Shown here: one piece after another, positions 2,594 to 48,916 of the stretch
How positions within the stretch are numbered: position 1 is the stretch's first letter
Layout of the letters: every line of letters starts with the position of its first letter
Assembly: GCF_000956525.1 (NCBI RefSeq)
Contig: NZ_JYIW01000022.1
Coordinates: 1 to 64,000, forward strand
From: Microbacterium oxydans
GTDB taxonomy: Bacteria; Actinomycetota; Actinomycetes; Actinomycetales; Microbacteriaceae
Reading direction: 5' to 3'
Length of the DNA stretch: 64,000 bases
The notes under the pieces: model-generated
What the model was told of the DNA's origin: nothing
Seen by the model: only the letters and a program-made list of their open reading frames with translations
The model's database searches: none
Position numbers and translations under genes: made by a program

Positions 2594-3211
2594 CTATGAC
2601 GAGGTCCCGATGAATTGCCAGGTCTGCGTCATCGTGAGACCCTGCGCCGCGTTGGCCGCCGTCGTGGGCAGCGTCACCGCGATGCAGTAGTTCACCGGTG
2701 CGCCGCCGTTCGCCGTGACCGCCTGCGTCGTCGCTCCGTTCGCGGTCAGCGCCGAGCCGTCAGCGACGACTGCCGTACCGGCCGGATACGTGGTCCCGTT
2801 GCAGGTGGTGCCCGCGATCGTGCGCACCCCGTAGGTGAGGTAGGTCGCGAGGCCGGTGCCGCCCGGCGTGCCGGCGTTCAGCTGCAGGGTGCCGGCCACC
2901 GAGGGGTTCGCCGTCTTGACGCTGAACAGCGCATACGTCGTCGTGCCCGGCGCCATGGCCGTCGGCGCGAGGGCGAAGCTGAGCGTCGCCGCGGCGCCCG
3001 TCGTCGCGTGGCTCGCGAAGGTGGCGCCGTCGACCGCTCCCACGATGTCGAACCGTCCCGCCTGGAACGTCGCCGCTGCGTACTCGGAGTCGTTCCAGGC
3101 GGCGAGCGTCGCAGCCGCCCCGATGCCGAAGACGAGTCCGCCGGCGAGCACCGCGCGAATGCGGCGGGAGCGCAATCGTCTCGCCTCCCGCATGCTGCTG
3201 CGGGTTGTCAT
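2594..3211 (-). CDS. exported protein with SipW-type signal peptide (second of the cluster)
   Basis: 205 residues. Basic N-terminus, hydrophobic helix (AVLAGGLVFGIGAAATLAAW), then WNDSEYAAATFQAGRFDIVG. This matches the WNDSEFATGTFTSGSFNLQG segment of the neighbouring 3219-3854 product, so the two are paralogues from a local duplication. The mature part is Ala/Gly/Thr-rich with a beta-sandwich-like composition and two Cys (TTCNG and NYCIA). It probably belongs to the TasA/camelysin-like group of secreted structural proteins processed by a SipW peptidase (family inference from the signal and context). The start is ATG at 3211, seven bases after the upstream stop; an in-frame ATG at 3193 is an alternative. 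Confidence 0.7.
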   Translation of the reverse strand: MTTRSSMREARRLRSRRIRAVLAGGLVFGIGAAATLAAWNDSEYAAATFQAGRFDIVGAVDGATFASHATTGAAATLSFALAPTAMAPGTTTYALFSVKTANPSVAGTLQLNAGTPGGTGLATYLTYGVRTIAGTTCNGTTYPAGTAVVADGSALTANGATTQAVTANGGAPVNYCIAVTLPTTAANAAQGLTMTQTWQFIGTSS

Positions 3212-3218
3212 GGCCGGC

Positions 3219-3854
3219 TCAGTTCGTCGACGTGGCCGTGAACTTCCAGGTGGCCGTCGTCGCGGTGCCCTGCTTGAGCGTCGCATCACCGGTGACCTTG
3301 AAGCAGAGCTGCACGGCCGTCCCTGCGGTGGCGGCGTCAGCGCCCTTGGTCAGGGCGACGGTCGTCACCCCGGTCTGGACGTCGAGGGTCGCGCCGGTCG
3401 CGATGGGGGTGCCGGTCGCGGATGCCGCGTTGCAGGTCGCTCCCGGTGCCAGCTGGTACACCTGGTACCCCAGGTGGCCGGAGTTCGAGGTGGCTGCGGC
3501 GTCGGCGGTCGTCCCGTTCGCGACGAGGTTCGCGCCGGTGGTCGTGCCGGCCGCGAGCCGGACCCAGAACCCGGCGTACACCGAATCACCGGGCGACATG
3601 TTGCCGACGAGGCCGGCGGGCAGTGTGAAGGCGAGCGACGCGGCCGTGCCACCGGTGTCGACGTTGTGGTCGCTGTAGTTCGCCGAGATGTCACCCGTGG
3701 TCGAGCCCTGCAGGTTGAACGAGCCGGATGTGAACGTTCCGGTCGCGAACTCCGAGTCGTTCCAGGCGGCGAGCGTCGCTGCGACGCCGACTCCGAGCAC
3801 GAGTCCTCCTGCGAGCACCGCGAGAACCTTGCGCTGATTGCTCTTCTTCGACAT
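3219..3854 (-). CDS. exported protein with SipW-type signal peptide (first of the cluster)
   Basis: 211 residues, first gene of the minus-strand operon. N-terminus MSKKSNQRK, hydrophobic stretch (about 9-27), then LAAWNDSEFATGTF, the alternate/SipW signal signature. The mature protein is rich in Thr, Ala and Gly with two Cys (GATCNA, VQLCFK). This is the same plan as the 2594-3211 product, so a paired disulfide is plausible. Start ATG at 3854, preceded by a GAGGGGG ribosome-binding stretch. I infer an extracellular fibre or matrix subunit by analogy with TasA. It could instead be a different secreted beta-protein using the same export route. Confidence 0.72.
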   Translation of the reverse strand: MSKKSNQRKVLAVLAGGLVLGVGVAATLAAWNDSEFATGTFTSGSFNLQGSTTGDISANYSDHNVDTGGTAASLAFTLPAGLVGNMSPGDSVYAGFWVRLAAGTTTGANLVANGTTADAAATSNSGHLGYQVYQLAPGATCNAASATGTPIATGATLDVQTGVTTVALTKGADAATAGTAVQLCFKVTGDATLKQGTATTATWKFTATSTN

Positions 3855-4030
3855 GAACCATCCCCCTCAGGAATCCGGCGACCGTGGGAACGCGTGAACC
3901 GGTCGCCCCTCAGGGACCTGCGTGTACAGCCGTACCCAATCCTCCCGAGACAAATCCCAGGTGACAAGGCTAATTCGCGCAGGACCAGCACTCATTGCGC
4001 GCATCCGATCACAACCTCATCACGGAGATA

Positions 4031-4076
4031 GTTGACGCATGTCAACCACAAGCGTATGGTTGACGAAGTTCAACCA
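4031..4076 (+). promoter_or_regulatory. promoter with two MarR-type operators
   Basis: A good promoter is visible: -35 TTGACG (4032-4037), 17-bp spacer, -10 TATGGT (4055-4060). Two inverted repeats of the form GTTGA-N6-TCAAC lie at 4031-4046 and 4057-4076 (the latter extends to TGGTTGA-N6-TCAACCA), centred 28 bp apart. One covers the -35/spacer and the other the -10/start region. The pair is ideally placed for repression by the MarR regulator encoded downstream in the same transcript. Confidence 0.75.
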
Positions 4077-4136
4077 TCTCGTGCGCGCCAGAGCTGTCGC
4101 GGAACCACTGATCCTCGCCCACACGAAAGGTCCGCC

Positions 4137-5852
4137 ATGACCACGGAGTCACCCGTCAAGATGACGCACCGTCAGGTGCTCGAAGCCCTCACGGGGCTGC
4201 TGCTCGGCATGTTCGTCTCGATGATCGCGACCACGGTCGTCTCGACGTCGATGCCCGTCATCGTCCACGACCTCGGCGGCGACCAGGCCGCGTACACCTG
4301 GGTCATCACCGCCACCCTGCTGACCACGGCGATCTCGACGCCGATCTGGGGCAAGCTCGCCGACCTGTTCAATCGCAAGCTGCTCATCCAGCTCGCGATC
4401 GTCATCTTCGTCGGCGCGACGGCTGCCGCCGGATTCGCCCAGGACACGAACACGCTGATCGCGTTCCGCGCCATCCAGGGCATCGGCGGCGGTGGCCTGG
4501 CAGCTCTCAGCCAGGTCATCATGGCCGACATCATCAGCCCGCGTGAGCGCGGCCGCTACATGGGCCTCTTCGGCGCCGTCATGGCCGTCGCGACCGTCGG
4601 CGGCCCGCTGCTCGGCGGCTGGATCACGGATGTCGCGAACTGGCGCTGGAACTTCTTCGTCGCACTCCCCTTCGCGATCGCCGCACTGATCATCCTGCAG
4701 AAGACGCTGCACATCAGCACCGCACGCACGCGCAAGGCATCGATCGATTACACCGGCATCGTGCTGCTCTCCGCCGCCGTCTCGCTGATCCTCATCTGGA
4801 TCACGAACGCCGGGTCCACCTTCGACTGGTGGAGCACCGAGACCGTGCTGATGGTCGGCGGCTCGATCATCGCCGCCGTCGCGTTCATCATCGTCGAGAA
4901 CAAGGTGCGCGAGCCGCTCATCCCCCTCTCGCTCTTCAAGGGCCGCACCTTCACCCTCTCGGTGATCGCGTCGATCTCGATCGGTGTCGCGATGTTCGGC
5001 ACCTCGGTCTACCTCGCCCAGTACATGCAGCTGTCCCGCGGCGCCTCGCCGACGGAGGCCGGCCTCATGACGCTGCCGATGATGGCCGGACTCCTGCTCT
5101 CATCGATGATCGTGGGCCAGCTCGTCACCCGCTTCGGCAAGTGGAAGGGCTACCTGATCCTCGGCTCCGTGCTGCTGATCGCCGGTTCCACGCTGCTGTC
5201 GACGCTGCACTACGACACGAACTTCGCGCTCGTCTCGCTGTACATGTTCTTCACCGGAGCCGGCGTCGGCATGACGATGCAGAACCTCGTGCTGATCGTG
5301 CAGAACGTCGCGAAGCCGAGCGAGATGGGCGTCGCCAGCTCCGGCGTCACGTTCTTCCGCAGCCTCGGCGGCACGGTCGGCGTCTCCGTCATGGGCGCCG
5401 TGCTGGCGAACTCCCTGACGACCCTGTTCGCCGACGGCAAGGAGCGCATCGGCACAGCGATCGCGCAACTGGGCGACAAGGGTGCCGAAGTCGCAGCGCA
5501 GCTCTCGAGCGGCACGCTCCCCGAGGTGCGTCTGCTCCCGGAGCCGGTGCGCTCGATCATCGAGGACTTCTACGCGCAGGCGATCTCGCACGCGTTCCTC
5601 ATCGGCATCCCGCTGGCCGTCATCAGCCTGATCGCGATCCTGTTCCTGCCGAACAAGCCGCTGACCACGATGACGACGAGCGAGCGGGCCCACGCCGACG
5701 CCACGAAGACGGATGCCGCCGACGGCGGTGTCGTCGACGACGCAGCCGATGTCGCGATCGCGGACGCGACCGCGCTCTCGGGTGCGACGACCGGAACGGT
5801 CACGGTGGTCTCAGGACGCTCCAGCGACCGGAACGCCGATGACCGAGACTGA
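4137..5852 (+). CDS. DHA2-family MFS multidrug exporter (14 TM)
   Basis: 571 residues of alternating hydrophobic helices, about 14, with the MFS loop motif near GKLADLFNRK and a motif-C-like glycine run (GGPLLGGW) typical of exporters. FRAIQGIGGGGLAAL is characteristic of the EmrB/QacA (DHA2) group, which expels drugs and other amphiphilic compounds using the proton gradient. The C-terminal 60 residues are hydrophilic and Asp/Ala-rich, probably cytoplasmic. The ATG at 4137 has GAAAGG six bases upstream; longer in-frame starts would run back through the promoter. It is co-transcribed with, and overlaps by 14 bp, the MarR gene. The double operator upstream implies derepression by the exporter's own substrates. 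Confidence 0.9.
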   Translation: MTTESPVKMTHRQVLEALTGLLLGMFVSMIATTVVSTSMPVIVHDLGGDQAAYTWVITATLLTTAISTPIWGKLADLFNRKLLIQLAIVIFVGATAAAGFAQDTNTLIAFRAIQGIGGGGLAALSQVIMADIISPRERGRYMGLFGAVMAVATVGGPLLGGWITDVANWRWNFFVALPFAIAALIILQKTLHISTARTRKASIDYTGIVLLSAAVSLILIWITNAGSTFDWWSTETVLMVGGSIIAAVAFIIVENKVREPLIPLSLFKGRTFTLSVIASISIGVAMFGTSVYLAQYMQLSRGASPTEAGLMTLPMMAGLLLSSMIVGQLVTRFGKWKGYLILGSVLLIAGSTLLSTLHYDTNFALVSLYMFFTGAGVGMTMQNLVLIVQNVAKPSEMGVASSGVTFFRSLGGTVGVSVMGAVLANSLTTLFADGKERIGTAIAQLGDKGAEVAAQLSSGTLPEVRLLPEPVRSIIEDFYAQAISHAFLIGIPLAVISLIAILFLPNKPLTTMTTSERAHADATKTDAADGGVVDDAADVAIADATALSGATTGTVTVVSGRSSDRNADDRD

Positions 5853-12772: not shown

Positions 12773-12830
12773 TGAGGAGCCAGCACACGCCGCATCCGCC
12801 CGACGCGCTGCGGCGCGTTCTGACCCCTCA
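12773..12830. repeat. 58-bp palindromic element, copy 1
   Basis: The left arm begins TGAGGAGCCAGCACACGCCG and the right arm ends GCGCGTTCTGACCCCTCA. The arms are imperfect complements around a variable centre, total 58 bp. It lies between the nusG terminator and rplK. First of seven copies in the window, all exactly 58 bp long. Confidence 0.85.
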
Positions 12831-16437: not shown

Positions 16438-19236
16438 ATGGCTCGTCCGAAGAAGCGCTTCCAGCAGCTCATCGAGGAGATCGACCGCACCCCCTGGGGT
16501 CCAGCGGAGCAGGCACTGGTCGCCGAAGCGGTCGCACTCGCGATCGAGCTGGGCGATGAGCAGCTCGAATACCAGGCTCGGATGCGGCAGACCGCCTCGG
16601 CGAACATGACCGGTGCCACCGACGTGATGCTCAACTCGTTCGCCTGGTGCCTGGCGCATCACGACCAGGATCCGCAGCGGTTCCCCGCCGACCTCGACAA
16701 CGGCGGCGCCGACCTGATGTGGCAGTTCAAGTGGATGGCGTCGTCGCTGCGCTCCTCCCCCGCGTTCTCGCAGGAGCAGATCGTCGCAGTGCTCGACGAC
16801 ATGGAGTCGCACTACCGTGCGGCCGGACTCGGCATGAGCGGCGTGCTCACGGCCCGGTTCGAGGACGCCTGGGACGCCGGCCGCACCGAGGATGCCGAGC
16901 AGCTGCGCGTGCAGCTCGAGGCGACGCCCCGCGACGAGCACAGCCACTGCGACGCCTGCGGACGCAGCCAGTTCGCCGGGTTCTTCGCGGAGACAGGGCG
17001 CGATGAGGATGCGATCCGCCTGGTCGAGGAGATGATCGAAGGCGGCTTCTCCTGCGGCGAGGAGCCCGAGCACGCGCTCTCCCGAGTGCTCGTGCCGTAT
17101 CTGCGCGCCGGACGCGGCGAGGAGGCGAAGACCGCGCACCTGCGCAGCTACCGCCTCGCCAAGGACAACCCGGACAACCTGCGCATCGTGGCGAACAACA
17201 TCGTGTTCGCCGCGCTGACCGGCAATGAGGCTCGTGCACTGGCACTCGTCGAACGGCACATCGCGTGGCTCTCGCACGACGGACTCAACGTCGACGCGCA
17301 CTTCGCCGCGCTGGCGGCATTCGCCTTCGCACTCGATCGCGTCACCGCGGCAGGTCACGGCGACACCCCGGTGCGCGGCGCCGAGTCACCGGCACTCGAG
17401 CCGTTCTTCGGCGCGCACGAAGGGGTCTGGAGCGCAGCAGAGCTCGCCGCGGTCGCCTGGTCGGCAGCCGAGCACATCGGCGCGGAGTTCGACCGCCGCG
17501 ACGGCACCGAAGGGCACGCCAAGAGTCTCGTGCGGATGCGGGCGCTCGCAGACGAGCACTACGACGTGCCGATCCGATCGGATGCCTTCGTGGCGACCGC
17601 ACCGGCGACCACCCCGACCGACGCCGACGGCTGGTTCGAGCGTGTGATGGAGCTCGCCCAGTTCGGCGCCGAGCACGAGACCCTCGAGGCGCTCCCCCGC
17701 GCACTCGCCGTCGATGATCCGGCCAAGCGCGCACAGCTGCTGTCGATGCATGTCGGGATCCTGGTGGCACTCGACCGCGCCGACGAGGCCCTGGCGCTGC
17801 TGCCCGAGCGGGTGGCGGCGCTGCGCGAGGCCGGCCGGGTCGAGCAGGCCGACCTCGAAGAACGGCTCGGACTCGCGACGTTCGGACTGAACACGCCAGA
17901 GGCCACGGCTGACCTGGAAGACGCGCTGGCCGAGGCATCCGATCTCCCCGCCTGGTCGCGCGGAGACCTCGCGATCAGCCGCGCCGCGCTGCACCTGCAG
18001 TCCGACGAGGCGGATGCCGCCCTCGACCTGGCCGAGCAGGCTGCGCGCGCCTTCGCCGAGGCGGAGGACACTCGGCTGTCGAACACCACGACACTCATCG
18101 CGATCGCCGCGGTGCTGCAGAAGAACGACATCGAGGCGACCTCGGTGATCCTCGAACGCTTCCTCGCGCAGGACGACCTCAGCATCGGCCACCGGGCACA
18201 GGCGCTGCACACGCGAGCGCGCGTTCGTGGCGGCACGAACGAGTACCGCGAGGGTGCGACGGATGCCGACGAGGCGTGCCGCCTGCTCGCGGGCATCGGC
18301 GCGACCAAGGCCCTGGCATCGGCGCATCTGCTGGCCGGAGCGCTCTGGGAAGACGCCGGCGAGCCCGAGAAGGCGGTCGCCCGCTACCGCGTGACGGCAC
18401 GCCTGACCGCGCAGGAGGGCGGCGATCTCGCGGGTGCGAACTTCCGCCTGGCGCGGGCGATGCTCGCAGTCGGGGATGCCGAGGAGGCGGCCGAACTCTT
18501 CGGATCGGTGCTCGAACAGGAGGAGCAGGCCGAGGTCGCGGCGGGCTCGCGCGCCATGACCGCATCGATGCTCGCCCGCTCGCTGAGCGCTGCCGGCGAG
18601 CACGGCCAGGCCTTCGGCGCGTTCGGCTATGCGGCAGGCCTCTACGGCGAGGCGGAGGAGCACGCCGATCAGGCGCTCTCCATGAGCGAGCAGGCGAAGA
18701 TCCTCGCGCAGTTCGACGAGCACGACGACGCGCTGGAGATGCTGGAGTCGGCAGCCGAGATCGTGCGGCGGGCACCGGATGCGGTCGGCGCGATCGCGGA
18801 GGTGCTGCACAACCTCGGCCAGATCTACGGCGGACGGCAGGATGAGCGCGCGTTCGCGCTGTTCGACGAGGTCACCGCCCTCGCCACGCAGCACGAGGCC
18901 GAATGGCTGCTGGCTGACGTCACCGACTCACGAGGGCGCGCGCTCGCCCAGGTGGGTCGCATCGACGAGGCGGTCGCCGCGGTGCTCACCGCCGCCGACT
19001 CCTTCGCCGGGATCGGTGACAGCGGTTCAGCCGGCGGGTCAGAGCTGTTCGCCGCTCGACTGCTCGCCGGCAACGACCGCGCCGACGATGCGGTCGCCGT
19101 CTACCGCAGCGCCGTGGACCACGGCGAGGCCCACCCGCCGCTGCGGCAGGTCGCGGCGCTGGAACTCGGCAACACGCTCGAGGCGCTCGGTCGCCACGGC
19201 GAGGCCGCCGAGGTTCGAGCGCTCATCGAGAGCTGA
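16438..19236 (+). CDS. large tetratricopeptide-repeat protein, partner of the HSP90-like gene
   Basis: 932 residues, soluble, no signal peptide or membrane helix. The sequence is almost entirely alpha-helical and dominated by degenerate 34-residue TPR units, clearest from about 400 to the end (for example ALDLAEQAARAFAEAEDTRL, AIAEVLHNLGQIYGG). A CxxC pair sits at HSHCDACGRS (about 175). TPR superhelices dock short peptides and scaffold complexes. The gene follows the HSP90-like ATPase by 43 bp on the same strand with GAAGGG upstream, so the two very likely form one operon and act together (inference). Catalytic residues are absent. It could be a co-chaperone or a client-recruiting scaffold. 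Confidence 0.85.
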   Translation: MARPKKRFQQLIEEIDRTPWGPAEQALVAEAVALAIELGDEQLEYQARMRQTASANMTGATDVMLNSFAWCLAHHDQDPQRFPADLDNGGADLMWQFKWMASSLRSSPAFSQEQIVAVLDDMESHYRAAGLGMSGVLTARFEDAWDAGRTEDAEQLRVQLEATPRDEHSHCDACGRSQFAGFFAETGRDEDAIRLVEEMIEGGFSCGEEPEHALSRVLVPYLRAGRGEEAKTAHLRSYRLAKDNPDNLRIVANNIVFAALTGNEARALALVERHIAWLSHDGLNVDAHFAALAAFAFALDRVTAAGHGDTPVRGAESPALEPFFGAHEGVWSAAELAAVAWSAAEHIGAEFDRRDGTEGHAKSLVRMRALADEHYDVPIRSDAFVATAPATTPTDADGWFERVMELAQFGAEHETLEALPRALAVDDPAKRAQLLSMHVGILVALDRADEALALLPERVAALREAGRVEQADLEERLGLATFGLNTPEATADLEDALAEASDLPAWSRGDLAISRAALHLQSDEADAALDLAEQAARAFAEAEDTRLSNTTTLIAIAAVLQKNDIEATSVILERFLAQDDLSIGHRAQALHTRARVRGGTNEYREGATDADEACRLLAGIGATKALASAHLLAGALWEDAGEPEKAVARYRVTARLTAQEGGDLAGANFRLARAMLAVGDAEEAAELFGSVLEQEEQAEVAAGSRAMTASMLARSLSAAGEHGQAFGAFGYAAGLYGEAEEHADQALSMSEQAKILAQFDEHDDALEMLESAAEIVRRAPDAVGAIAEVLHNLGQIYGGRQDERAFALFDEVTALATQHEAEWLLADVTDSRGRALAQVGRIDEAVAAVLTAADSFAGIGDSGSAGGSELFAARLLAGNDRADDAVAVYRSAVDHGEAHPPLRQVAALELGNTLEALGRHGEAAEVRALIES

Positions 19237-19240
19237 GCCG

Positions 19241-19360
19241 GGTCGCGCGGTCGCGCGGTCGCTCTCACGCGTTCGCGGTCGCGCTCTCTCTCGCGCGGTC
19301 GCACTCGCGCTCGCGCGGTCACGGTCGCTCTCTCGGTCGCGCGCTCGCGCTCCCGCGTTC
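19241..19360. repeat. low-complexity CGCGCGGTCGC-type repeat
   Basis: About 120 bp of degenerate short repeats built from GGTCGCGCGGTCGC, GCTCTCTC and CGCTCGCGC units, between the TPR gene and a 58-bp palindrome. No open frame of protein character and no clear promoter. It may have expanded by slippage. Confidence 0.7.
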
Positions 19361-19364
19361 ACGC

Positions 19365-19422
19365 TGAGGGGTCAAAACGCGCCGTTCGCATCCGCGTGCC
19401 AGCGGCGCGTCTTGGCCCCTCA
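19365..19422. repeat. 58-bp palindromic element, copy 2
   Basis: TGAGGGGTCAAAACGCGCCG at the left; CGGCGCGTCTTGGCCCCTCA at the right. The centre is unpaired (TTCGCATCCGCGTGCCAG). It lies between the convergent TPR and pyruvate oxidase genes, 14 bp past the latter's stop, so it may double as a terminator. Confidence 0.85.
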
Positions 19423-19436
19423 CGGCATCGGGGCGC

Positions 19437-21158
19437 TCAGAACAGCTGGCGCCAGTTCGCCCTCGCCAGGTCGAGCAGCTCGTCTCCGCGTCCCGACATG
19501 ACCGTGCGGATCGCGTAGAGCGCGAAGCCCTTCACCTGCGCGGCCTCGATCGCCGGCGGCATCGACAGCTCCTGTCGCTCGGTGACGACGTCGAGCAGCG
19601 CTGGTCCGTCGTGGGCGAGCACTTCGCGCACGGCGTCCGGGAGATCCTCGCTCCGCTCGACCCGACGCGCGAAGATGCCCATGGCCTCGGCGATCGCGGC
19701 GAAGCTCGGGTTGTCGAGGCCGGTGCCGTAGGTCACGAAGCCGGCGGCCTTCATCTCGAGCTCGACGAAGTTCAACGACGAGTTGTTCACCACGATCGTC
19801 TTCACCGGCAGTCTGTTCTGCGTCAGGGTCAGCAGCTCGCCGAGCATCATCGCGAGGCCGCCATCGCCGGCGAGCGCGACGACCTGACGGTCCGGATGCG
19901 CGACCTGCGCGCCGATTCCGTGCATCAGCGCATTCGCCATGGAGCCGTGTGTGAACGACCCGATCAAGCGGCGCTGCTCGGTCATCCGCAGGTATCGGGC
20001 CGCCCAGACCGTGGGAGAGCCGACATCGGCGGTGAAGATCGCATCATCCGCCGCCTGCTCGTTCAGCAGCCGGGCGAGGTACTGCGGATGGATCGGGCGT
20101 CCCGCCTTGGTCGGCACCGCGAGATCGTCGAGCTTCGCACGGGTCTTGCGGTAGTGCGCGGTGGCGTCGTCGAGGTGGCCGCGGTCCTTCTCGGCGAGCC
20201 GCGGCAGCAGCGCCTCAGCGGTCGCACCGACGTCGCCGACGAGCCCCAGATCGAGCGGATGACGTTTGCCGAGCTGCTCGCCGCGGATGTCGACCTGGAT
20301 CGTGGTCGCGCCATCCGGATAGAACTGCTCATACGGGAAGTCGCTGCCGAGCACCAGCAGCGCATCGGCCGATTCCATGGCGCGGTACCCGGAAGCGAAG
20401 CCGAGCAGTCCGGTCATGCCGACGTCGAACGGGTTGTCGTACTCGATGAACTCCTTGCCGCGGAGCGCGTGCACGATCGGCGCGCCCAGGCGGTCGGCCA
20501 GCGCGATGACCTCGTCGTGCGCGCCTTCGACACCCGCACCGGCCAGGATCGTGACACTCTTGGCCTCGTTCAGCAGCGTCGCCGCACGCTCGAGCTCGGC
20601 ACCACTGGGAACGACGACCGGTCGGGTGCGCTCGATCACGACCGCACGGTCATCGGCGATGTCGGCAAGCGCGACGTCACCGGGGATCACCAGCACGGCG
20701 ACGCCGCGCTTCTCGATCGCCGCGCGCATCGCGATCTCGAGCAGGCGCGGCATCTGTCGCGGGTCGGCGACGTACTCGACGTAGACACTGCACTCACGGA
20801 AGAGCTCCTGCGGGTGAGTCTCCTGGAAGTACCCCGTGCCGATCTCGTTCGTGGGGATGTGCGCCGCGATCGCGAGCACGGGCACCCGCGAACGGTTCGC
20901 GTCGTACAGGCCGTTGATCAGGTGCAGGTTGCCTGGACCACAGGACCCGGCGACGACTGCGAGCTGGCCCGTGGTCGCAGCATCCGCCGCCGCCGCGAAG
21001 GCAGCGGACTCCTCATGCCGCACATGCACCCATCGGATCGTGCCGTCCTTTCGGAGGGCGTCCGTGAAGCCGTTCAGCGAATCTCCGGGGAGACCGTAGA
21101 CGCGATCGATCCCGTTGGCGTGCAGAGTCTTGACGATGTTCTCAGCGACATTGGCCAT
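19437..21158 (-). CDS. poxB: pyruvate dehydrogenase (quinone) / pyruvate oxidase
   Basis: 573 residues, the usual length of PoxB. The TPP enzyme layout is complete: the N-terminal Pyr domain with catalytic Glu in RHEESAAFAAAADA (about 50), the central FAD-linked domain, and the C-terminal PP domain with the GDGG...NN thiamine-Mg motif (GDGGLAMML to VVNNSS). PoxB decarboxylates pyruvate to acetate at the membrane, passing electrons to quinone. The acetate could feed the glyoxylate shunt encoded downstream in this window. The ATG at 21158 is preceded six bases away by the -10 hexamer TAGGGT, so it is leaderless. Confidence 0.93.
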   Translation of the reverse strand: MANVAENIVKTLHANGIDRVYGLPGDSLNGFTDALRKDGTIRWVHVRHEESAAFAAAADAATTGQLAVVAGSCGPGNLHLINGLYDANRSRVPVLAIAAHIPTNEIGTGYFQETHPQELFRECSVYVEYVADPRQMPRLLEIAMRAAIEKRGVAVLVIPGDVALADIADDRAVVIERTRPVVVPSGAELERAATLLNEAKSVTILAGAGVEGAHDEVIALADRLGAPIVHALRGKEFIEYDNPFDVGMTGLLGFASGYRAMESADALLVLGSDFPYEQFYPDGATTIQVDIRGEQLGKRHPLDLGLVGDVGATAEALLPRLAEKDRGHLDDATAHYRKTRAKLDDLAVPTKAGRPIHPQYLARLLNEQAADDAIFTADVGSPTVWAARYLRMTEQRRLIGSFTHGSMANALMHGIGAQVAHPDRQVVALAGDGGLAMMLGELLTLTQNRLPVKTIVVNNSSLNFVELEMKAAGFVTYGTGLDNPSFAAIAEAMGIFARRVERSEDLPDAVREVLAHDGPALLDVVTERQELSMPPAIEAAQVKGFALYAIRTVMSGRGDELLDLARANWRQLF

Positions 21159-21164
21159 GCTTCG

Positions 21165-21170
21165 ACCCTA
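21165..21170 (-). promoter_or_regulatory. -10 hexamer for leaderless poxB
   Basis: TAGGGT on the minus strand, six bases before the ATG. Confidence 0.45.
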
Positions 21171-21211
21171 CGCCTGCTCCCGCACGCGGGTCCCGTCTCC
21201 GTTCTCCGACG

Positions 21212-21269
21212 CGAAGGGTCAGGACACGCCCCGCCGCATTCGATCCGCACGGCGCGTTCTGACCCCTCG
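21212..21269. repeat. 58-bp palindromic element, copy 3
   Basis: CGAAGGGTCAGGACACGCC at the left; GGCGCGTTCTGACCCCTCG at the right. It is 34 bp from copy 4, both between poxB and the DUF559 gene. Confidence 0.8.
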
Positions 21270-21303
21270 GGAGGAACACGGCCATGCGGCAGCGCCGTTA
21301 CGG

Positions 21304-21361
21304 TGAGGGGCCAGAACACGCCGTCACCCGTTGGCGGACGGCGGCGGGTCGTGACTCTTCA
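21304..21361. repeat. 58-bp palindromic element, copy 4 (degenerate right arm)
   Basis: The left arm TGAGGGGCCAGAACACGCCG is intact. The right arm is partly eroded (GGTCGTGACTCTTCA), while the centre still pairs (GCCGTC with GACGGC). It ends exactly where the 19-bp tandem array begins. Confidence 0.75.
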
Positions 21362-21445
21362 GGCGAGCAGATCACGCGGAGGCGAGCGGATCACGCGGAG
21401 GCGAGCGGATCACGCGGAGGCGAGCGGATCACGCGGAGGCGAGCA
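21362..21445. repeat. 19-bp tandem repeat overlapping the DUF559 stop codon
   Basis: GGCGAGCGGATCACGCGGA is repeated four times head to tail (21362, 21381, 21400, 21419; the first copy has one change) plus a partial fifth unit inside the gene. Read on the minus strand, the last codons and TGA stop of the DUF559 gene are within the array, so the 3' end of the gene appears to have been copied outward. Confidence 0.85.
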
Positions 21446-22316
21446 TTCGACGGATGCGACGCACGAGAGCATCCGGATCGTCGATGTCACGGCGGGTGAC
21501 CGTCGTGTATCGGTACCCCAGCGCCTCGAGCTCTGCCCGCCTCATCTGGTCACGGCTCCATCGATCAGGATCTCGATGATGGTCTCCGTCGTACTCGATG
21601 ATCAGCTTGCGATCGCGGTAGAGCATGTCGACTCGGGCGACGAACCGGTGCTCGTCCCAGATCTCGACGTTGCACTCCGGGGCCGCCAGGCCAGCATCGA
21701 TGAGGATCAGGCGCACCATCGACTCCCGCGGAGACTCAGCCCGGTCATCAGCCAACTGCAGTGCCCGTTCGCGTGCGAGCGCACCGCGTCCGCCCGAGTA
21801 CCGCTGCTGCATCTCCTCCAGCTCGACGATCGTCGCCAGCGGCCGTCTGCGAGAGATGAGCGCATCGGTGACCGCCAGCAGGCCCGATATCGGAAGGGTG
21901 CGCGAGACATCGATCCAGGTCCGGGCCGGCGAGAGGCATGGCATTCCTCGGACGAACTGCACATCGTCGTCCTCGATCGCCAGACGATGACCGAACACGT
22001 CAGCTCGTCGCACTCGCGTCGCGTGCCGCGGCACACCGATGCGCGGCCTCGCCCAGGCATCCGCTTCCACGATCCGCGAGAGCGGAAGTCCCCAGAGGGC
22101 GGCAGCAGTGACACCGCAGGCGAAGGCATGACCCGGGATCGCGTCCAAGAGAAGCTGCAGTCGCTCGACGTCCGTCAGCGTGCCGCTCGTCCTCGTCCCG
22201 TGGAACGGGCTGCTCAGGTCTTTCGCGCGCAGTCGTTTCGTGCTCACACCGTGCCCACGCGCCTCCCGGATGGTGAACGCAGCGGGGAGATGAGAAGGAA
22301 GCGGCGATGGATGCAT
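21429..22316 (-). CDS. DUF559 (Vsr-like) endonuclease-domain protein
   Basis: 295 residues. The N-terminal part looks like the AbiEi-type winged-helix region common in actinobacterial members of this group (FTIREARGHGVSTKRLRAKD, then a middle region with AALWGLPL). The C-terminal DUF559 domain (about 215-290) is a PD-(D/E)xK-like Vsr relative: VARVDMLYRDRKLIIEYDGD, then HH and RWSRDQMRRAELEALGYR. Such proteins are usually annotated as endonuclease-domain or antitoxin-like proteins; activity is unproven. Start ATG at 22316. The gene is bracketed by two 58-bp palindromes on each side, and its stop lies in a 19-bp tandem array. Confidence 0.7.
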   Translation of the reverse strand: MHPSPLPSHLPAAFTIREARGHGVSTKRLRAKDLSSPFHGTRTSGTLTDVERLQLLLDAIPGHAFACGVTAAALWGLPLSRIVEADAWARPRIGVPRHATRVRRADVFGHRLAIEDDDVQFVRGMPCLSPARTWIDVSRTLPISGLLAVTDALISRRRPLATIVELEEMQQRYSGGRGALARERALQLADDRAESPRESMVRLILIDAGLAAPECNVEIWDEHRFVARVDMLYRDRKLIIEYDGDHHRDPDRWSRDQMRRAELEALGYRYTTVTRRDIDDPDALVRRIRRMLASA

Positions 22317-22419
22317 CCGCCGATTGTGCGCGCCCGGGAACTGTCCGCCGCGAGTGATGCTCCCCACGCGCCGGCCGTTGTGCGAGATTCGCCGCAACGG
22401 TCACGCAGTGCAGACCGAG

Positions 22420-22477
22420 TGAGGAGCCAAGACACGCCGCAGGCCGCTCGGCCGGCACGGCGTGTTTCGACCCCTCG
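22420..22477. repeat. 58-bp palindromic element, copy 5
   Basis: TGAGGAGCCAAGACACGCCG at the left; CGGCGTGTTTCGACCCCTCG at the right, centre AGGCCGCTCGGCCGGCA partly self-complementary. 81 bp from copy 6, both upstream of the DUF559 gene. Confidence 0.82.
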
Positions 22478-22558
22478 GCGGAGGGGCGGACCCGCGTCGC
22501 GGACGCGGCCGCGGCAGCGGCAGCGGCAGCGGCACGAGGGTAGTCCGCGATGCGGGAG

Positions 22559-22616
22559 CGAGAGGGCAGAACACGCCGCCGTCCCGGCCGGGACGGCGGC
22601 GTGTTCTGGCTCCTCG
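22559..22616. repeat. 58-bp palindromic element, copy 6 (near-perfect)
   Basis: Two 29-bp halves that are complementary except for three positions near the outer ends. The half is CGAGAGGGCAGAACACGCCG followed by CCGTCCCGG. It begins 12 bp beyond the stop of the aldehyde dehydrogenase gene and would make a strong terminator hairpin for that operon. Confidence 0.9.
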
Positions 22617-22627
22617 GCAGGGAGCGC

Positions 22628-23992
22628 TCAGCCGATACGGATGAGCTTCTTGTTCACGAACTCGTCCGCGGCGAGGTGGCCCAGCTCACGCGACGTGCCG
22701 CTGCGCTTGATGCCGCCGAACGGCAGCTCCGGGCTGTCGGCGAGCACGAGGTTGACGTAGACCATGCCTGCCTCGATCTTGTCGGCCACGCGCTCCGCCT
22801 GCTCCGCGTCCGTCGTGAAGACGTAGGAGCCGAGCCCGAAGGTCGTGTCGTTCGCGAGCTCGATCGCAGCGTCCTCGTCGGCGACCCGGTAGACCACCGC
22901 GGCGGGGCCGAAGAGCTCCTCGCGGTACACGTTCATCTCCGGCGTCACGTCGGCGAGCACGGTCGGTGCGAAGAACGCACCGTCGCGGGTGCCACCCGTC
23001 AGCAGCGTCGCGCCCTGCTCGACCGCCTGGTCGATCTGCTTCTGCAGGTTCTCGGCTGCGGTCTCGGACGAGACGGGTCCGAGGACCGTGTCGTCGAGTG
23101 TCGGGTCGGTCGCCTCGACGGCTGCCATCGCGGCCGTGAACTTCTCGACGAAGGTGTCGTACAGGTCGTCGACGATGATGAAGCGCTTGGCGCCGTTGCA
23201 GGCCTGTCCGTTGTTGTCGAGGCGGGCATCCACGCCCGCACGGACGGTCGCGTCGAGGTCATCCGTCGAGAGCACGATGAACGGGTCGGACCCGCCCAGC
23301 TCGAGCGCGACCTTCTTGAGGTTGCGGCCGGCGATCTCGGCGACCGCAGCGCCGGCGCGCTCCGAACCGGTCAGCGACACGCCCTGCACGCGCGGGTCGG
23401 CGATCATCGTCGCGATCTGCTCGTTCGTGGCGAGCACGTTCTGGTACGCGCCCTTCGGGAATCCGGCGTCGTGGTAGATCGCCTCGATCGCCGTCGACGA
23501 CTCGGGGCACTGCGGCGCTGGCTTCAGCAGGATCGTGTTGCCGACGATCAGGTTGGGAGCCGCGAACCGCACGATCTGGTACGCCGGGAAGTTCCACGGC
23601 ATGATGCCGACGAGCGGCCCCAGCGAGGACCGGCGGATGATGGCGGTGCCGTCGCCGAGGATCGCGATCGGCTGATCGGCCATGATGGCCTCGGCCTGGT
23701 CGGCGTAGTACTCGGCGATGTCGGCGGCGAAGTCGACCTCGCCGAGGGCGGCCTCGCGAGGCTTGCCCATCTCGCGCACGAAGACGTCGGCGAGCTCCTC
23801 GCGGCGCTCGCGGTGCAGCTCTGCCGCGCGACGCAGCAACGCTGCACGCTCGGCGACGGTGGTCGAGCGCGACCACTCGCGGTGTGCGCTGTCCGCCGCT
23901 GCGACGGCGTCGTCGATCTGCGCGTCCGTGAAGGTGTCGAAGGATGCCAGCGTCTCGCCGGTGGCGGGATTGATGACGGCGTAGTCGGTCAT
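22628..23992 (-). CDS. NAD(P)-dependent succinate-semialdehyde dehydrogenase-like (ALDH)
   Basis: 454 residues, aldehyde dehydrogenase superfamily. Catalytic Glu in KKVALELGGSDPFIV (about 225) and nucleophile Cys in NNGQACNGAKRF (about 260). It lacks the longer N-terminus of classical GabD and resembles the shorter actinobacterial SSADH group. In this putrescine/GABA operon one dehydrogenase should oxidise 4-aminobutanal and the other succinate semialdehyde; sequence alone does not say which is which. It is the last gene of the minus-strand operon, separated from the second ALDH by a 66-bp gap containing a hairpin. Confidence 0.85.
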   Translation of the reverse strand: MTDYAVINPATGETLASFDTFTDAQIDDAVAAADSAHREWSRSTTVAERAALLRRAAELHRERREELADVFVREMGKPREAALGEVDFAADIAEYYADQAEAIMADQPIAILGDGTAIIRRSSLGPLVGIMPWNFPAYQIVRFAAPNLIVGNTILLKPAPQCPESSTAIEAIYHDAGFPKGAYQNVLATNEQIATMIADPRVQGVSLTGSERAGAAVAEIAGRNLKKVALELGGSDPFIVLSTDDLDATVRAGVDARLDNNGQACNGAKRFIIVDDLYDTFVEKFTAAMAAVEATDPTLDDTVLGPVSSETAAENLQKQIDQAVEQGATLLTGGTRDGAFFAPTVLADVTPEMNVYREELFGPAAVVYRVADEDAAIELANDTTFGLGSYVFTTDAEQAERVADKIEAGMVYVNLVLADSPELPFGGIKRSGTSRELGHLAADEFVNKKLIRIG

Positions 23993-48858: not shown

Positions 48859-48916
48859 TGAGGGGTCAGAACACGCCGCGCCGGCTCCGCCCGGCGCGGC
48901 GTGTTCTGACTCCTCG
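48859..48916. repeat. 58-bp palindromic element, copy 7
   Basis: TGAGGGGTCAGAACACGCCG left and CGGCGTGTTCTGACTCCTCG right. The centre GCGCCGGCTCCGCCCGGCGC also pairs. It lies 40 bp after ald and 56 bp before aspC, 26 kb from the nearest other copy. Confidence 0.88.

Follow-up and report, generated by a model that had tools for sequence, protein, structure and literature searches.

Genes for predicted DUF559-family nucleases are usually framed by matching palindromes in Microbacterium and other actinomycetes

The sequence under study (hereafter, the window) is a stretch of 64,000 nucleotides of Microbacterium oxydans (RefSeq assembly GCF_000956525.1, contig NZ_JYIW01000022.1, positions 1 to 64,000 of the forward strand). 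The window harbors seven copies of a palindrome and a gene with a Pfam DUF559 match (E 3e-5, over its cut-off), with two copies of the palindrome directly on each side of this gene (Table 1). All the seven copies are exactly 56 bp long (58 bp if a further Y...R outer pair is considered) and consist of two conserved 20-bp arms (consensus GAGGGGTCAGAACACGCCGC) and a 16-bp centre without conserved sequence. The neighbours of the DUF559 gene are, according to Pfam, a TPP enzyme gene and an aldehyde dehydrogenase gene. The start codon of the DUF559 gene was chosen by alignment with its homologues, even though a second, more upstream start is also open.

Table 1. Position of the DUF559 gene, of its predicted domains and of the palindrome copies in the window.
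Feature	Coordinates	Strand	Description
DUF559 gene	21429..22316	-	295 aa; most likely start ATG at 22316, alternative start TTG at 22397
AbiEi-antitoxin-like region (predicted)	21747..22316	-	codons 1-190
Nuclease domain (predicted)	21432..21746	-	codons 191-295
Palindrome copy 1	12774..12829		dispersed; nusG-rplK gap, beyond the native hairpin next to nusG
Palindrome copy 2	19366..19421		dispersed; between convergent genes
Palindrome copy 3	21213..21268		3' side of the DUF559 gene
Palindrome copy 4	21305..21360		3' side of the DUF559 gene
Palindrome copy 5	22421..22476		5' side of the DUF559 gene
Palindrome copy 6	22560..22615		5' side of the DUF559 gene; 12 bp from the stop of the aldehyde dehydrogenase gene
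Palindrome copy 7	48860..48915		dispersed; between an alanine dehydrogenase gene and a class I/II aminotransferase gene

In order to assess the distribution of the palindrome in the whole genome, a covariance model was built and searched against its 3.81 Mb, disclosing 38 copies at E <= 1.5e-6, with the next candidates at E 0.04. Since 150 of 13,097 first-look candidates were scored, this number represents a lower bound; indeed, a weaker related match (39 bits) beside a DUF559 paralogue of the same genome (L036; L numbers denote DUF559 loci) turned up only in a later search of the DUF559 loci. At this density, 0.014 copies would be expected in 1.4 kb, whereas four are seen around the DUF559 gene. 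Moreover, a 10-base piece of the arm with up to 1 mismatch occurs 17 times in the window against 4.8 expected, the largest of 100 shuffles being 10. Of the 35 copies examined (out of 38), all 56 bp long, 17 lie between convergent genes, 14 between tandem genes, none between divergent genes, 3 at contig ends and 1 inside an ORF call; for comparison, 39 of 129 gaps in the same sequence are divergent. Seventeen of 35 same-genus genomes have a match to the model, twelve of them with ten or more strand hits; the distribution is patchy.

The first-pass annotation had noticed the four copies around the DUF559 gene, had likened the arrangement to the pairing of REP elements with RAYT transposases, and had proposed that the gene product might act on the repeat, with coincidence as the alternative. 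In order to check whether DUF559 genes and the palindrome are associated also in other strains, DUF559 homologues were retrieved from 18 genomes of the genus and, together with the paralogues of the window's genome, gave 35 loci. Of the 26 loci from genomes bearing this palindrome, 10 have palindromes of this family on both sides and 3 on one side only; of the 9 loci from palindrome-free genomes, none does. A first scan of the own DUF559 paralogues for the window's palindrome had found none, which looked like evidence against the association until each of them proved to have flanking palindromes of another sequence or of weaker likeness (L035 on one side only). When the two flanks of each locus were compared with each other without assuming any sequence, 24 of 34 loci (L134 gave no tblastn hit) scored >=22 against 1 of 136 other genes of the own genome, the one being the gene located between copy 2 and copies 3-4. 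It should be noted that the control genes were called with a codon-usage gene finder of our own, which mis-starts some genes.

The analysis was then extended to an independent set of loci from titled actinomycete records. A wider alignment had no stretch conserved enough to scan with, and a smaller one was used; the best 80 of at least 556 relatives were kept by similarity to the query and not by palindrome, and 5 of them were discarded because of short flanks. Of the 75 usable loci, 58 carry matching sequence on both sides (flank-to-flank score >=22) against 1 of 214 neighbouring genes, again a gene directly beside a DUF559 gene; 54 of 75 against 1 of 214 do so when both strands must match (>=18), as a palindrome demands. 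The 4 remaining loci match on one strand only, one of them (L202) in repetitive-looking sequence. Of the 17 loci lacking a matching pair at this score, one (L164) keeps a whole downstream copy and an upstream stub. In a further comparison, a strong palindrome is present on at least one side in 81 of 100 loci against 16 of 104 control genes, and on both sides in 48 against 1. Framed loci come from Microbacterium, Leifsonia, Herbiconiux, Subtercola, Rathayibacter, Agromyces, Jiangella, Isoptericola and others. Five of 6 loci on plasmid records, for which no control was run, also score >=22 (three Arthrobacter and two Tsukamurella, one of the latter only as an inverted repeat), while a Nonomuraea locus does not. 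The downstream match starts a median 4 bp after the stop codon and the upstream one ends a median 105 bp before the annotated start, and the two flanking copies have no fixed relative orientation (21 inverted, 22 direct, 15 undecided of 58).

Interestingly, the sequence of the palindrome differs between protein clades and follows the protein. Among 77 framed loci of 102, pairs of loci share the palindrome (score >=18) in 4 of 4 cases above 80% protein identity, 26 of 35 at 60-80% (i.e., 30 of 39 at >=60%), 40 of 148 at 50-60%, 8 of 198 at 45-50% and 9 of 2,541 below 45%; these last 9 pairs show that some arm sequence is common to distant clades. The rank correlation (Mantel rho 0.242) exceeds all 999 permutations (highest 0.146). 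In at least three genomes the framing family is also dispersed between other genes, namely the own genome and two of the genomes compared with it (designated by G numbers), G007 and G013. In G007, the window's model found 43 copies at E <=0.0012; in all 8 scored (of 17) they resemble the flanks of G007's own DUF559 gene more than those of the window's, and G007's flanks are best or tied best of all in 7 of 8 (GC-skew sampling of G007 was noisy and only suggests where the terminus lies). In G013, another family is dispersed, with seven further matches at six places. Over all genomes, however, 22 of 32 scorable dispersed copies match the DUF559 flanks of their own genome best, and 13 of these 22 (8 own copies, scored out of 13, and 5 from G013) were found with models or queries from the same families, so that part is circular. 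The copies of G018, G020, G023, G027 and one of G007 ranked own flanks second or third, whereas those of G005, G009, G012, G016 and G024 ranked them sixth or lower and may be orphan families or belong to genes that were not retrieved.

At syntenic sites the unit can be present, absent, or replaced by another palindrome. The gap between the TPP-enzyme and aldehyde dehydrogenase genes was read in 16 of 79 genomes: the window, G023 and G083 hold palindrome-DUF559-palindrome (gaps of 1469, 1175 and 1174 bp), while G001, G004 and G005 have 121, 50 and 154 bp with no DUF559 gene and no palindrome of this family (G005 has another inverted repeat there); the other ten gaps hold up to 2.6 kb of other sequence. 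Homologues of the same clade (51-57% identity) sit between a murB gene and a class I/II aminotransferase gene in G016 and, by sequence likeness, in G027, and next to murB at a contig end in G019, so the unit occupies different places in different species. The nusG-rplK gap was read in 10 of 15 loci tried (30 were retrieved). The window and G083 carry the window's palindrome, G001 carries an array of the family that frames G001's own DUF559 gene (L129), G100 and G029 carry other palindromes, and in G002, G063, G021, G030 and G064 none was seen; where present, the palindromes lie beyond the native hairpin next to nusG, which is kept. The G100 palindrome resembled the family of one own paralogue (L037), and a subsequent search disclosed in G100 a 76% homologue of that paralogue framed by that family. 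The G029 homologue found in the same search shares only the outer part of the stem and is not counted as a success.

Concerning the protein, the AlphaFold2 model obtained from 102 homologues has a mean pLDDT of 96.9 and a pTM of 0.92, and is confidently made of an AbiEi-like DNA-binding half plus a Vsr/I-Bth0305I-like (EDxHD) nuclease half. Residues 195-295 match the catalytic domain of the homing endonuclease I-Bth0305I (3r3p, Z 12.5, rmsd 2.4, 93 aligned) and Vsr (1cw0, Z 10.0, rmsd 2.4, 97 aligned), while residues 1-190 match the AbiEi antitoxin (6y8q, Z 9.6, rmsd 6.0, 176 aligned) and Rv2827c (1zel, Z 8.0, rmsd 4.5, 192 aligned). The list of structural matches is filled mostly by nuclease-domain hits, so the N-terminal match rests on these two related entries of moderate Z and on the PADLOC AbiEi models, which match up to 47 of 102 homologues; Foldseek alone gave nothing at E <=0.001, and NCBIfam matched 0 of 4 proteins. 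Pfam DUF559 is found in 80 and MTES_1575 in 91 of the 102 homologues. E198, R202, E241, H247 and D256 are present in 102 of 102 and D230 in 100 of 102, also in loci without a detected pair. The dN/dS ratio is 0.17 for G083 against G023, the one unsaturated pair; the two pairs with the window's gene give 0.18-0.19, but with saturated dS. So the protein is kept as a protein and as a likely nuclease.

The arrangement recalls that of REP elements and RAYT transposases (REPtrons), where the gene is flanked by and coevolves with a short palindrome, which is also dispersed at gene ends and sometimes in arrays (PMC2817692, PMC3733652). Nevertheless, the enzyme is unrelated (AbiEi-like plus Vsr/EDxHD fold), and no Y1_Tnp (PF01797) match was found in any of 35 same-genus genomes, while the same search detected it in E. 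coli and four other genomes out of 14 controls. Furthermore, in the window's family the outer edge is Y-GA in 15 of 15 copies and the 10 flanking bases hold no conserved tag, such as the GTAG (or CGTC) of REPs, and the flanking copies lack the fixed inverted orientation of RAYT units. Hence, the system works like REP/RAYT but is not a member of it. The nuclease fold and the nearly invariant acidic and histidine residues are shared with EDxHD homing endonucleases, a family to which a cyanobacterial DUF559 gene has already been assigned (PMC9403480); however, no intron or intein was seen around the gene, which does not interrupt its supposed site but sits between two whole copies, and an AbiEi-like half is fused on. 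With respect to AbiEi antitoxins, which bind inverted repeats (PMC7319586), and to Rv2827c, a nuclease domain is present on the same chain, and no toxin-like gene lies beside it in the window. With Vsr mismatch endonucleases and other DUF559 proteins the nuclease fold is shared, whereas the protein described here has two domains and is framed by cognate palindromes; no framing is mentioned in the consulted parts of the description of a Vsr-like DUF559 protein of Caulobacter (PMC12907096).

The whole body of data indicates that the association is real and general, and supports the REP/RAYT-like pairing proposed by the first-pass annotation, although the clade specificity of the palindrome, the nature of the enzyme and its AbiEi-like half could not have been known from the window alone. 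It is quite likely that the gene and the palindromes form one system, in which a dimer of the protein recognises its palindrome and helps spread or maintain it. That the protein acts on the palindrome is likely but inferred, and that it moves the palindrome or its own gene is only the best available reading; no binding, cutting or movement was observed. According to this model, one AbiEi-like half would bind each conserved arm, and the nuclease domains would cut in or near the unconserved centre, much as I-Bth0305I is described to dimerise on a target of nearly 60 bp (PMC3943268). Cutting both flanking palindromes would release the gene with a half-palindrome at each end, and joining to a cut single palindrome elsewhere would recreate two whole palindromes around it; single palindromes would then be empty sites and by-products of spread. 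The substrate might be a duplex, but a hairpin or cruciform would also suit the data: own copies keep arm pairing above shuffles (602 Watson-Crick cells of 700 against 574, sd 5.8) and so does the centre (124 of 280 against 102, sd 7.3), while in G007 the arms do (310 of 340 against 302, sd 2.9) and the centre does not (49 of 136 against 49.7), even though these shuffles ignore that the copies are related.

Other explanations appear unlikely. The palindrome might be mainly an operator, with the AbiEi-like half repressing its own gene and the dispersed copies being extra regulatory sites; in fact, AbiEi antitoxins autoregulate by binding inverted repeats in their promoter (PMC7319586), and a copy ends upstream of the annotated start. 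However, an equal copy sits at the stop codon, the dispersed copies lie at gene ends and none of 35 between divergent genes, and the nuclease residues are nearly invariant, which a pure repressor would not need. Only slightly less plausible is the idea that the palindromes are transcription terminators or insulators travelling with the gene, the protein not acting on them, as might be suggested by the location of the classified dispersed copies downstream of genes and by the short distance between the DUF559 stop and the downstream copy. Against this, no T-run exists in the 10 bases on either side of any of 15 own copies, and a terminator scan of 19200-22700 found 0, although it only allows loops of 3-8 bases; moreover, the arms are conserved base by base, which a hairpin terminator does not need, the sequence follows the protein clade, and in the nusG gap the palindromes lie beyond a native hairpin. 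It is very doubtful that the protein is a stand-alone defence or repair nuclease of the AbiEi/Vsr type, the palindromes merely marking a favoured insertion context: the Vsr fold, the PADLOC matches and the Caulobacter protein would fit, but no toxin-like partner is found beside it in the window, clade-specific palindromes on both sides are not expected of defence genes, and none of 125 pattern matches in viral contigs was confirmed as a relative. Lastly, coincidence in a repeat-rich spot can be dismissed, since, even though palindromes also cluster elsewhere in this genome without a DUF559 gene beside them (three clusters of three copies), the association recurs across genera with different palindrome sequences and controls near zero, palindrome and protein co-vary, and the forward test in G100 succeeded.

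A more far-reaching reading, which is possible but tentative, is that of a family of selfish or partly domesticated elements, widespread in Actinomycetes, in which a dimeric AbiEi-Vsr fusion nuclease cuts its own roughly 58-bp palindrome and cut palindromes exchange halves, so that the framed gene can leave one palindrome and enter another. It would be a second, non-homologous origin of REP-like repeats and a natural collection of nucleases with long, clade-specific palindromic targets. The partner enzyme described for REP palindromes is the HUH RAYT, and a 2013 survey left its CGTC-tagged palindromes without any (PMC3733652). To our knowledge the pairing is new: literature searches, which mostly did not cover subscription papers, turned up no paper pairing DUF559, MTES_1575 or EDxHD proteins with dispersed palindromes (among those consulted, besides the papers cited above, PMC12306157 and PMC5552033). 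A second, unrelated enzyme family paired with its own palindromes would show that this way of life arose twice, would give a function to many of the DUF559/MTES_1575 proteins that Pfam lists as unknown or restriction-like, would explain scattered palindromes in actinomycete genomes and, because each protein clade comes with its own palindrome, would offer many enzyme-site pairs. It is also worth noting that DUF559 relatives are rarely on phages or plasmids, with 1 phage record and 6 plasmid records.

The palindromes are unevenly distributed. In the genome under study, none (0 of 38) of its own copies is located on the two contigs C25 and C26, which together make up 42% of the genome; similarly, in the same-genus genome G007, just 1 of 43 copies falls in the third of the chromosome that probably holds the terminus; an origin-side preference is unexplained. 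One palindrome (L105) lies in frame inside an open reading frame that, according to our reading, joins a fumarylacetoacetate-hydrolase-like and an RraA-like gene. In the window, a tandem repeat with a 19-bp unit (AGGCGAGCGGATCACGCGG, about five units) is located directly beside palindrome copy 4 and the 3' end of the DUF559 gene.

Coordinates of the regions and features described in the text
Feature	Sequence	Coordinates
Contigs with none of the 38 copies	own genome, C25 and C26	
Third of the chromosome probably holding the terminus	G007, C1	1102578-2332629
Palindrome inside an open reading frame (L105)	G000, C24	386113-386168
19-bp tandem repeat	window	21361-21455
DUF559 remnant with a palindrome on each side (L140)	G024, C4	456699-459905
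Tandem palindrome arrays on both sides of a DUF559 gene	L166 (M. sorbitolivorans)	2640-4200

In genome G024, a DUF559 remnant (locus L140), matching only the last 69 residues (72% identity), still has a palindrome on each side, which looks like a decayed unit. Two M. oleivorans records (L164 and L165) share one locus at 86% identity; in both of them the downstream palindrome is kept, while the upstream one is reduced to a stub in L164. In M. sorbitolivorans, tandem arrays of several palindromes are located on both sides of a DUF559 gene (locus L166), like the BIME clusters of REPs. Lastly, in the TPP-aldehyde dehydrogenase gap of genomes G005 (L264) and G099 (L265), where the DUF559 gene is lacking, other long inverted repeats of unknown family are present.
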